A DNA stretch of 59,527 bases from an uncultured Geobacteraceae bacterium (lineage in GTDB: Bacteria > Desulfobacterota > Desulfuromonadia > Geobacterales > Pseudopelobacteraceae). The notes below the pieces were generated by a model. That model saw only the letters and a program-made list of their open reading frames with translations. It was not told the DNA's origin and made no database searches. The stretch spans positions 1 to 59,527 of the forward strand of contig CAIOXL010000196.1 of the NCBI GenBank assembly GCA_903862245.1, read 5' to 3'. The translations under genes were made by a program, and so were the position numbers. The number at the start of each line of letters is the position of its first letter. Positions within the stretch are counted from its first letter, which is position 1. Below are positions 55,034 to 58,312 of the stretch, one piece after another.

Positions 55034-56254
55034 TCAGCGAATACTGTCTTCCGGATACGCTCCGATTTTGTGGATTGACACGTCGGCGCCGTTATACTCA
55101 TCGTCCTGGTCAAGGCGGATTCCTACACTCTTACTCAGGACTCCATAAACAACGAAACTGCTGACCAGGGCAAACAGTACGGCGAGGAGGCTCCCGCCCA
55201 GTTGGGAAAGGAAGCTGACTCCCCCCATCCCGCCCAGAAACTTCTGGCCGAAAATACCGGCGGCAATCCCGCCCCAGGTGCCGATTATACCGTGTAGCGG
55301 CCATACTCCCAGGACATCATCGATTTTGAGTTTCTCCTGCTCCATGTGGAAGCCGTAAACAAAAATCACCGACGCGATGCAGCCGACCGCGAATGCCCCC
55401 AGCGGGTGCATAATGTCGCTGCCGGCGCAGACGGCAATCAGTCCGGCCAGGGCACCGTTGTGAATAAAGCCGGGGTCGTTCTTGCCGGCCACCAGCGCCG
55501 CGATAACGCCGCCAACCATTGCCATCAGCGAGTTAACCGCCACCAGACCGGATATCTTTTCCAGGTTTCCGGCGCTCATGACATTGAAACCGAACCACCC
55601 GACCGCCAGAATCCATGATCCGAGTCCCAGAAACGGGATGTTGCTGACCGGGATAGCGTGGGATTTGCCGCGCACATACCGCCCCATGCGCGGCCCGAGG
55701 ATAATAACCGCCGGCAGGGCGATCCAGCCGCCGATGGAATGAACGACAACAGAGCCGGCATAGTCGTGGAACGGAGCCCCGCCGATTGATTGGAACAGAG
55801 CCTGCACCCGCGAGGCGTTTTGTCCCCAGACGATCGATTCAAATAACGGGTAGGAAATACCGGCAAAGATAGCGCCTGCGGTTACCTGCGGCCAGAACTT
55901 GGCACGCTCGGCGATACCGCCGGAAATAATGGCGGGAATACAGGCGGCAAAACAGAGCAGGAAGAAGAAGTGGACCAGATCGTACCCCTGGGTTGTGCCG
56001 AGCAGCTCCTCTGCGGGCCGTAAAAAAGAGATGCCGTAGGAGATCGGGAAGCCGACCAGGAAGTACACTACCGTTGAGACGGACCAATCGGTGAGAATTT
56101 TTACCAGTGCGTTCACCTGGTTTTTTTTGCGCACTGTGCCAACTTCAAGGAAGGCAAAGCCGGCATGCATCGCAAAAACCATTATAGCACCCAGCAGAAG
56201 AAACAGAACGTCGGCACTACCCTTCAGACCTGTCATCGTTGACATGGTTTCCAT
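55034..56254 (-). CDS. amt: ammonium transporter
   Basis: 406 residues, eleven predicted membrane helices. Family motifs include FAFLEVGTVRKKNQVNALVKIL, the DYAGSVVVHSIGGWIALPAVIILGPRMGR segment and LGVWPLHGIIGTWGGIAAG near the end, with the two pore His residues in VVHSIGG and PLHGIIG. A short cytoplasmic C-terminus would bind a PII protein; no glnK gene is adjacent. Upstream a sigma-54 promoter and an NtrC-like site predict induction by nitrogen limitation. It is monocistronic. Confidence 0.95.
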   Translation of the reverse strand: METMSTMTGLKGSADVLFLLLGAIMVFAMHAGFAFLEVGTVRKKNQVNALVKILTDWSVSTVVYFLVGFPISYGISFLRPAEELLGTTQGYDLVHFFFLLCFAACIPAIISGGIAERAKFWPQVTAGAIFAGISYPLFESIVWGQNASRVQALFQSIGGAPFHDYAGSVVVHSIGGWIALPAVIILGPRMGRYVRGKSHAIPVSNIPFLGLGSWILAVGWFGFNVMSAGNLEKISGLVAVNSLMAMVGGVIAALVAGKNDPGFIHNGALAGLIAVCAGSDIMHPLGAFAVGCIASVIFVYGFHMEQEKLKIDDVLGVWPLHGIIGTWGGIAAGIFGQKFLGGMGGVSFLSQLGGSLLAVLFALVSSFVVYGVLSKSVGIRLDQDDEYNGADVSIHKIGAYPEDSIR

Positions 56255-56307
56255 ACAGAATTACCCCCGTTGGTGTCTGTTGCCCGTCATTGGGCCGTTT
56301 CGGCCTG

Positions 56308-56323
56308 TGCAAGAAAATGGCCA
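56308..56323 (-). promoter_or_regulatory. sigma-54 (RpoN) promoter of amt
   Basis: The minus strand reads TGGCCATTTTCTTGCA, matching TGGCAC-N5-TTGCW with the -24 GG and -12 GC correctly spaced. It ends 53 bases before the amt start codon. A nitrogen-regulated promoter for an ammonium transporter is what known NtrC biology predicts. Confidence 0.8.
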
Positions 56324-56405
56324 ATCGTATTTTGTCTGTAACATGCTTAATTTGCAGGATACCTCTGATCTGCCGTGCACCACCACTGCCTTAAAAAACG
56401 GCAGA

Positions 56406-56422
56406 TGCCGCATAATGGTGCA
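56406..56422. promoter_or_regulatory. NtrC-like enhancer upstream of amt
   Basis: TGCCGCATAATGGTGCA matches the dyad TGCACCA-N3-TGGTGCA at 12 of 14 positions. It centres about 117 bases upstream of the expected amt transcription start, a normal enhancer distance for sigma-54 activators. A further perfect half-site TGCACCA lies at 56376-56382. The same 225-base gap must also hold the uvrC promoter, which was not identified. Confidence 0.55.
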
Positions 56423-56479
56423 GTCACCAGCCGACGAAGCCTCTTCCCATTACGGTTACAAACAGGTAGGATTGCGATC

Positions 56480-58312
56480 ATGAGTCTCGATGAAAAAATA
56501 CAGCAATTTCCGGCTTCGCCCGGAGTTTACCTGATGCACGACGGTGACGGTACCATCATCTATGTCGGCAAGGCCCGCAGTCTGCGGCAGCGGGTGCGCT
56601 CGTACTTCAGCTCATCGGGCGACTCGCGCTATCACGTCAAATTCCTGATGGCCAAAGTTGTCGACATCGAAATCATGCTGACCGATACTGAAAAGGAAGC
56701 GCTGCTGCTGGAGAATACCCTTATCAAGCAGCATAATCCCCGTTACAACCTGAACCTCAAGGATGACAAAACCTACTTTTCACTGCGCATAGACCCCCAT
56801 GATGAGTTTGCGCGCTTTACCATTGTCCGCAAACGCCCGTGCGACGGAGCCCGCTATTTCGGCCCCTACTCCTCCGGTGCGGCGGCCCGGGAGGTGCTCA
56901 GGCAGATGACACGCATGTTTCCGCTGCGTCACTACCCGCTCTCCGCCTGCATGTCCCGCACTCGTCCCTGCCTGTACCACCAGATCGGTCAGTGCAGTGC
57001 TCCGTGCCATGGCCAGATTACGCCGGAAGCATACGCGGTGCTGGTGAGCGGGGCGATGCTTTTCCTTGAGGGAAAAGGGCGGCAGTTGATAGCTGAATTC
57101 AAGCGGCGGATGAGTGATGCTTCGGAGCACCTGCTCTATGAAGAGGCAGCTCGATGGCGAAACCTGCTCCGCTCTATTGAAACAACGGTCGAAAAACAGA
57201 AGGTTGTGCTGAGCGGTGGAGATTGCGATGTGCTCGGTTTCTACCGTGACGGTGAGCGGATCGAGTTGGCGCTGCTGTTTATCCGCGCCGGTGTCCTCTC
57301 CGGGAGCCGCCTCTTCAGCGTCGTCTGGGAGCTGGATGACGCTGCTGCAATTTCAGGCTTTCTTCAGCAATACTACGCCGGGTCGGTGTATATTCCAGAG
57401 GAGATTCTCCTGCCGCTTGCTATCGAAGATGGCAGGGCGTTGGCAGAATTGCTCGGTGACCTGAAAGGGAGCAAGGTTACCCTCCACCTTCCCCTGCGCG
57501 GCACAAAACGGGAGCTGGTTGTCCTGGCCGGCAGGAACGCCATGACCGCCTATCGGGACCGTGATGAGAAGGCGGCGGCAGTCGAGGCGGTGCTGGCTGA
57601 TCTCTGCAAGCGGCTCCAGTTGGCCCGGCTGCCGCAGCGGATAGAGTGCTATGACATCTCCACCATTCAAGGGCGCTTCTCGGTGGGGAGCTGCGTTGTG
57701 TACACGGCCGGAAAAGCGGATCGGAACAACTACCGTCACTATCGCATCCGAACGGTAGAAGGGCAGGATGATTTTGCCATGCTGCGGGAAGTGTTTTTGC
57801 GCCGGTTCAGGGTCGAGGAGGGGGGAAATGCGGTGCTGCCCGATCTTGTGGTCGTTGATGGCGGGATCGGCCAGTTGAACGCTGTGCAGGAAATAGTGGC
57901 CGAACTTGGACTGACGGGGCGTTTTGATCTGGTTTCGCTGGCCAAGAGTCGGGTACTGCATGATGCTGCTGCGCACGATGTCCAGAGGAGTGATGAACGG
58001 GTGTTTCTGCCCGGGAGAAAAAACCCGGTGGTGCTGCGTCAGAATTCTGCAGCGTTACTGTTGCTGGCGGCGATCCGGAATGAGGCGCACCGTTTTGCCA
58101 TCGGCTATCACCGGAAGCTGAGGGGGAAAGAGGGGATTGCCTCGGCACTGGACGGCATTGCCGGGATCGGCCCCAAACGCCGCACCGAACTGCTGAAATA
58201 TTTCGGCAGTCTCCCGCGTCTCACCGAAGCAGCTCCGGAGGAAATCATGACGGTCCCGGGTATAAACCGGACAACGGCAGAGGCCGTATGGAGAGGCCTG
58301 CACCATGACTGA
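56480..58312 (+). CDS. uvrC: UvrABC excision nuclease subunit C
   Basis: 610 residues from ATG at 56480 (MSLDEKIQQFPASPGVYLM); an in-frame reading to 56375 covers the amt control region and is rejected. The GIY-YIG nuclease domain is GVYLMHDGDGTIIYVGKARSLRQRVRSYF. A Cys cluster (CMSRTRPCLYHQIGQCSAPCHG) recalls the Fe-S site reported in UvrC. The UvrB-interacting UVR region, the RNase H-like domain (RIECYDISTIQG, LVVVDGGIGQLNA) and the C-terminal helix-hairpin-helix pair (GIAGIGPKRRTELLKYFGS) follow. It overlaps miaA by 8 bases. Confidence 0.96.
   Translation: MSLDEKIQQFPASPGVYLMHDGDGTIIYVGKARSLRQRVRSYFSSSGDSRYHVKFLMAKVVDIEIMLTDTEKEALLLENTLIKQHNPRYNLNLKDDKTYFSLRIDPHDEFARFTIVRKRPCDGARYFGPYSSGAAAREVLRQMTRMFPLRHYPLSACMSRTRPCLYHQIGQCSAPCHGQITPEAYAVLVSGAMLFLEGKGRQLIAEFKRRMSDASEHLLYEEAARWRNLLRSIETTVEKQKVVLSGGDCDVLGFYRDGERIELALLFIRAGVLSGSRLFSVVWELDDAAAISGFLQQYYAGSVYIPEEILLPLAIEDGRALAELLGDLKGSKVTLHLPLRGTKRELVVLAGRNAMTAYRDRDEKAAAVEAVLADLCKRLQLARLPQRIECYDISTIQGRFSVGSCVVYTAGKADRNNYRHYRIRTVEGQDDFAMLREVFLRRFRVEEGGNAVLPDLVVVDGGIGQLNAVQEIVAELGLTGRFDLVSLAKSRVLHDAAAHDVQRSDERVFLPGRKNPVVLRQNSAALLLLAAIRNEAHRFAIGYHRKLRGKEGIASALDGIAGIGPKRRTELLKYFGSLPRLTEAAPEEIMTVPGINRTTAEAVWRGLHHD

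Follow-up and report, generated by a model that had tools for sequence, protein, structure and literature searches.

The amt locus and its promoter region

The window analysed here, the whole stretch of 59.5 kb (59,527 nucleotides) forming contig C196 of a 2.92-Mb genome from an uncultured Geobacteraceae bacterium, contains a gene for an ammonium transporter of 406 aa (amt, 55034-56254, minus strand; PF00909, E=5.7e-87), which scored 296 bits against the NCBIfam amt model, below its cut-off of 343.3. The amt family was matched in all 58 genomes searched, and the nearest amt proteins among the named loci belong to Geobacter sp., Geobacteraceae, Desulfuromonadaceae and Oryzomonas records. Divergent from amt lies uvrC (56480-58312, plus strand), with Pfam UvrC domains and an IPP-transferase gene next after it, and a divergent uvrC within 1.5 kb upstream of amt could be found in 24 of 30 loci, the window counted in.

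The region before amt contains the sigma-54 -24/-12 element TTGGCCATTTTCTTGCA (56308-56324, minus strand). No other site in the window fits TTGGC-N7-TTGCW exactly, and allowing up to one mismatch gives 9 matches against 11 expected. Its GG and GC lie 10 bases apart, and TTGGC and TTGCA agree with the general sigma-54 consensus, which has ACG where amt has CAT; an earlier note on this DNA was thus correct in placing the element here and generous in calling it near-perfect. Of 57 order-level loci, a set built after six duplicate loci and loci below 77% were left out, 54 have GGC-N7/8-TTGC no more than 160 nt from the start of amt, and a -24/-12 block could be seen by eye in 29 of 30 aligned upstream regions, the exception being L027; owing to their kinship, these loci and those compared for the dyads are not independent trials. 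By the usual sigma-54 geometry, transcription is predicted to start about 12 nt past the -12 C, at 56296-56298 (minus strand).

Further upstream, dyad 1 (56406-56422), reading TGCCGCATAATGGTGCA on the plus strand and TGCACCATTATGCGGCA on the amt strand, is the NtrC-like dyad of the earlier note. It is the best site in the window for TGCACCA-N3-TGGTGCA, the NtrC dyad consensus used for scoring, and matches it at 12 of 14 positions. With up to three mismatches the window holds 3 such sites against 2.8 expected, so that the dyad alone is not beyond chance, and it is the comparison of loci that settles the matter: at least one TGC-N11-GCA stands in the 170 nt before the promoter element in 43 of 54 loci, against 2.5% of mononucleotide shuffles. 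Eight of the 11 loci without it belong to other families of the order, one to the same genus (L018), and two are named records. Dyad 2 (TGCCGTTTTTTAAGGCA on the amt strand, 56387-56403), which the earlier note overlooked, follows at 19 bp, and tandem TGC-N11-GCA at a spacing of 19-21 bp was found in 22 of the 54 loci, against 0 of 10,800 mononucleotide shuffles. Promoter and dyad are therefore judged real because they are conserved across loci, the statistics of the single window not being decisive. The partner of dyad 1 appears to be this second adjacent dyad and not the extra half-site TGCACCA (56376-56382, plus strand) that had been pointed out previously: of the 54 loci, four, the window among them, carry GGTGCA or TGCACC within 64 nt upstream of the -24 element, each at its own distance, and the half-site was dropped as a functional element for want of conservation.

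The genome encodes RpoN (PF04552, E=8.1e-64), and a PAS histidine kinase gene is followed by the gene of an NtrC-like activator; the ORF ahead of this pair looks dus-like by eye. Among 71 matches to the ntrC model this activator ranks first, at 533.5 bits against a cut-off of 558.6, and since it scores below the cut-off the name NtrC is putative. Two other nitrogen operons show related signals by eye, namely the P-II/amt2 operon (L154, 3960-5500), with the sigma-54-like element TTGGCACACTCTCTGCT and an NtrC-like dyad TGCACCATTTTTTTGCA about 140 bp upstream, and glnB-glnA, with the sigma-54-like element TTGGCAAGAAGCTTGC (glnA was likewise recognised by eye). Together with the conserved elements, RpoN and the kinase/activator pair, these operons make sigma-54/NtrC-type control of amt well supported by sequence, with NtrC as a candidate for the activator. 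The region resembles NtrC/sigma-54 nitrogen promoters in its GG-N10-GC element and in dyads with TGC...GCA ends that precede a nitrogen gene by about 100 bp. It differs from them in its two contiguous dyads 19 bp apart, in its putative activator, and in that the dyads here are often TGCC-N9-GGCA, not TGCAC-N7-GTGCA, the enterobacterial form of the NtrC dyad. In Geobacter sulfurreducens, an RpoN promoter of glnB-glnA has been described by primer extension (PMC2725144), and the terms 'amtB' and 'ammonium transporter' are absent from the main text of that report.

A conserved leader with two predicted hexaloop hairpins

Between promoter and start codon, the orthologous leaders have GCCC-AANGAC-GGGC and ACC-AANGGR-GGT in common, a conserved RNA leader that the earlier picture of amt control, right as to promoter and dyad, had overlooked. 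The predicted hairpin P1, GCCC[AATGAC]GGGC (56282-56295, minus strand), would open the mRNA at its predicted 5' end; the aligned positions of its loop hold A1 and G4 in 52 of 55 leaders, and a stem of at least four pairs encloses such a hexaloop in 43 of 55. P2, ACC[AACGGG]GGT (56263-56274, minus strand), contains the Shine-Dalgarno sequence and has A1 and G4 in 55 of 55 and at least three pairs in 49 of 55, while a possible outer stem ACAGA/TCTGT around it (56255-56280, minus strand) is weak, with 59% of cells paired. Both loops have A1 and G4 at aligned positions in 52 of the 55 chosen leaders. The P1 loop keeps A1 in 53, A2 in 52 and G4 in 54 of 55 with its stem bases changing, nine different four-pair P1 stems occur among the leaders, and A1 of P2, which is not a Shine-Dalgarno base, is present in all 55.

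These counts describe leaders chosen as orthologous, because rows were left out of the alignment: duplicates (L060, L061, L062, L065, L070, L076), loci with a leaderless or divergent amt (L027, L033, L067, L073, L074, L075, L077, L078, L079) and all loci with an amt identity of 1 to <77%. Among the loci left out, an A1/G4 hexaloop was found in none of L027, L067, L074 and L079, and L033, L073 and L075 had one each. The set was drawn from genomes with a start found by script, so that others, L042, L051, L052 and L058 among them, were never in it.

A dual-hexaloop descriptor, requiring at least four pairs in P1, at least three in P2 and A1/G4 loops, matched 37 of the 55 amt leaders, against 36 of 16,990 63-nt windows of the window sequence (that of amt included) and 31 of 11,000 mononucleotide shuffles. 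At the starts of ORFs of at least 150 aa it matched 1 of 70, namely amt. A covariance model gave one strong match in the genome, the amt leader that was its source (E 7e-12), followed by one at 0.7, with 150 of 469 candidates scored; no further strong amt-type leader was thus found in the genome by this model. Scanning of L153, L154, L155, L157 and L059 from the same genome for dual hexaloops of at least four pairs yielded three matches, none of them before a nitrogen gene. A search of Rfam returned four matches, all far under their gathering scores, and no terminator was found in the amt leader, hence no overlap of the antitermination type.

Comparative evidence for the stems is of mixed strength. 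In P1, four standard pair types are found at 16-29 and four at 17-28. The covariation score (0.178 vs 0.099) was higher than in any of 500 shuffles or any slid version, and so was the share of paired cells (84.9% vs 80.5%), values that related sequences can reach without structure. Sterner measures were weak, two-sided pair changes being reached by 16 and pair types by 80 of 500 shuffles, and the version slid by +2 had more two-sided changes than the true alignment (35 vs 23 cells); changes in P2 are mostly one-sided, as expected because of its overlap with the Shine-Dalgarno sequence. Inclusion of the outer stem ACAGA/TCTGT raised the shuffles reaching the observed values to 200 of 500 for two-sided changes and 414 of 500 for pair types. 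RNAalifold predicted no pairs and no consensus structure for the leader alignment. Among eight single folds, P1 was read in seven and P2 in two, with z from -2.1 to +0.9 and none exceptionally stable. The lowest-energy fold of the window's own leader contains P1 and no P2, and in it the Shine-Dalgarno sequence is base-paired with the region of the start codon, an arrangement that would also hide the Shine-Dalgarno sequence. The case for a leader structure is thus built on kept loops and varied complementary stems, not on energy.

The ANTAR regulator and the nifB leader

One ANTAR response regulator (PF00072 and PF03861) is encoded in the genome, and its gene stands beside draG (TIGR02662) and the start of nifB (TIGR01290). 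The best solved relatives of the protein are 1s8n, a putative antiterminator, and 6wsh/6ww6, which are EutV. Known ANTAR targets consist of two mini-hairpins whose loops have A at position 1 and G at position 4 (PMC3369931), and in the account of the EutV-RNA structure G4 is the only base contacted specifically and a single hexaloop is proposed as the minimal site (PMC8934654). As read from the alignment, with chain numbers taken as paper numbers plus 2, eight of 11 EutV residues in contact with RNA are identical in the present protein (R142, K143, K147, K149, E160, Y164, M172, R175), those gripping the loop base G4 among them, and R168 (Q), N173 (D) and R177 (T) differ.

The leader of nifB in the same genome (L059, 250-400) carries GGC[AACGAC]GCC, which overlaps with the 5' arm of a terminator stem of 13 pairs. 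Since its stem has three pairs, it was invisible to the scan requiring at least four; it was found by reading and then tested. In 21 loci around the ANTAR gene, nifB was found in eight and not in the stretch covered of the other 13, and all eight nifB-bearing loci (L059, L195, L199, L202, L204, L205, L207, L208), which belong to one genus, have the hexaloop, as GGC[AACGAC]GCC or, once, GGC[AATGAC]GCC. The hairpin is single, with a three-pair stem in most loci, and a terminator pattern was detected in five of the eight leaders, so the nifB hexaloop is likely to be an ANTAR antiterminator. A sigma-54-like element could be seen by eye upstream of this nifB leader, and by eye in several nifB loci. 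The P1 loop of amt has the same form as the nifB loop, AANGAC, and at the level of sequence nothing else ties the amt leader so closely to the ANTAR protein as this shared loop.

Distribution of the regulator is less telling. ANTAR was found in 109 of the 112 genomes of the order, and because it is nearly universal, its co-occurrence with the leader proves little. G047 and G054, two genomes of one genus that are 99-100% complete, keep both hairpins and have no ANTAR match; a search with the ANTAR protein gave only weak receiver-type matches there (at best about 1e-13, as against 6e-67 for the control G041), all of which stop short of the ANTAR domain's end. With 109 of 112 genomes positive and two contrary genomes, co-occurrence was set aside as uninformative. 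Under stricter filters, with scoring of 52 candidates per genome, 90 of 112 genomes gave a leader match at E <=0.05. Of the 58 nearer genomes, for which positions relative to amt were checked, 53 have a match; the listed matches lie at amt starts, except for extra or orphan copies in G018, G021 and G033. Of the 22 genomes without a leader match, 16 have amt, and five of 15 leaders inspected contain a P2-like hairpin. Eight of these 15 are from genus g15 (L166, L167, L168, L170, L171, L173, L174, L177), where ANTAR is present in all 10 genomes; all eight lack the dual-loop form and are leaders of a different kind.

Predicted mechanism and alternatives

The reading that we consider most likely, and moderately probable, combines NtrC-type activation of a sigma-54 promoter with ANTAR control of amt translation. 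In the mechanism that we infer, sigma-54 RNA polymerase would start amt at about 56297, a step strongly supported by the conserved element, driven by an NtrC-type activator, presumably NtrC, on the two adjacent dyads, whose centres lie about 98 and 117 bp upstream. The amt mRNA would then open with two short hairpins carrying A1/G4 six-base loops, the target shape of ANTAR response regulators, and both would probably be bound by the genome's single ANTAR regulator, the one beside draG and nifB. Since the Shine-Dalgarno sequence lies in P2 and no terminator was found in the amt leader, such binding would affect translation, with repression more likely than activation. At nifB, where the same kind of loop overlaps a terminator, binding would be antiterminating.

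It could also be that promoter and NtrC-type enhancer alone are regulatory, and that the leader is a 5' stability hairpin joined to a strong ribosome-binding site. P1 lies at the predicted mRNA 5' end, where hairpins can protect an mRNA, the G positions that never vary in P2 belong to the Shine-Dalgarno sequence, and the ANTAR-less G047 and G054, the weak sterner covariation and the presence of P2 in two of eight lowest-energy folds all fit this explanation. A stability hairpin, however, needs no fixed loop, and P1 keeps A1, A2 and G4 in nearly all leaders despite its stem changes, while the AANGAC loop recurs over the nifB terminator and A1 of P2, outside the Shine-Dalgarno bases, is found in every leader; we therefore regard this alternative as unlikely. 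Less probable again is recognition of the hairpins not by ANTAR but by some other factor, for instance a CsrA-like protein or a small molecule. G047 and G054 keep the leader with no ANTAR match, and the P2 loop fits ANGGA, the core consensus of CsrA, in 16 of 55 leaders, but the window's own P2 loop, AACGGG, has no GGA, a P1 loop containing GGA was found in 1 of 55 leaders, and no Rfam family reached its gathering score. CsrA as the ligand was rejected, as 16 of 55 P2 loops fit and that of the window does not.

The earlier note had further suggested that the dyads might control uvrC as well as amt, a proposal that drew no support here and that we hold to be very improbable. It could appeal to the divergent uvrC near amt in 24 of 30 loci, to the end of dyad 1 at 58 bp before the uvrC start, to CATAAT (56411-56416), seen by eye inside this dyad, which could be a -10 box, and to the TGC...GCA-type sequence that still stands before uvrC, by eye, in G018 and G033, where amt has become separated from it. 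Against it, TGC-N11-GCA is absent from the 250 nt before uvrC in the single genome G024 (L192), where uvrC lies about 4 kb from amt, and a consensus scan before uvrC gave no sigma-70 promoter. A block in the uvrC leader (56443-56473, CTTCCCATT...AAACAGGTAGGATT) is conserved in the upstream alignment and partly so in G024, where uvrC is not beside amt.

The RNA step of the preferred reading, sigma-54/NtrC-type activation with ANTAR control of translation, can be set beside known ANTAR RNAs. With the ANTAR antiterminator RNAs described for EutV/eut of Enterococcus, NasR/nasF and AmiR (PMC3369931, PMC8934654), the amt leader shares two A1/G4 mini-hairpins with a short linker and an ANTAR-domain response regulator in the genome; unlike in those systems, no terminator was detected and the second hairpin overlaps the Shine-Dalgarno sequence. 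The actinobacterial ANTAR RNAs, as described in PMC8164766, are alike in that some have the ribosome-binding site in the second stem-loop, and translational control has been proposed for many of them; a Shine-Dalgarno hairpin without a terminator points to translation in the same way. They are unlike the present case in phylum, the gene here being a sigma-54 nitrogen gene whose leader is conserved across the order. The same source relates that Geobacter studies tie ANTAR-target RNAs to nitrogen use, and gnfK and gnfR are given as GSU0941 and GSU2822 (PMC7962754). The literature searched showed no ANTAR-type leader on a Geobacter ammonium-transporter gene, and we claim no priority. GnfK/GnfR and GnfL/GnfM were reportedly identified by Ueki and Lovley in 2010 as nitrogen-fixation regulators of G. 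sulfurreducens. By this description, the present case is alike in its related bacteria and in a nif-linked RNA-binding response regulator with an NtrC-like activator.

More tentatively, our results raise the possibility that one nif-linked ANTAR regulator in Geobacterales uses one loop code for nifB antitermination and, via a Shine-Dalgarno hairpin, for amt translation, atop an NtrC/sigma-54 promoter. If true, this would be a translation-type ANTAR switch outside Actinobacteria that joins nitrogen fixation to ammonium uptake, and AANGAC could serve as a short loop code for finding other targets of the regulator. Geobacter-like bacteria fix nitrogen in anoxic sediments, and should a single RNA-binding regulator govern ammonium uptake as well as the making of the nitrogenase cofactor, the region would show how fixing and import are balanced.

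In three genomes an orphaned leader of amt, with a few codons of the gene's beginning, stands beside uvrC, namely in L180/L186 (G018), L181/L188 (G021) and L182/L190 (G033), with amt itself on other contigs (L007, L031 and L027), as if an integrative element had entered at the amt start. In L191 (G033), a phage-integrase gene (PF00589) and TTTTTGTACC-type repeats lie upstream of amt, and the separated amt genes of G018 and G021 have their own sigma-54-like element and hairpin leader.
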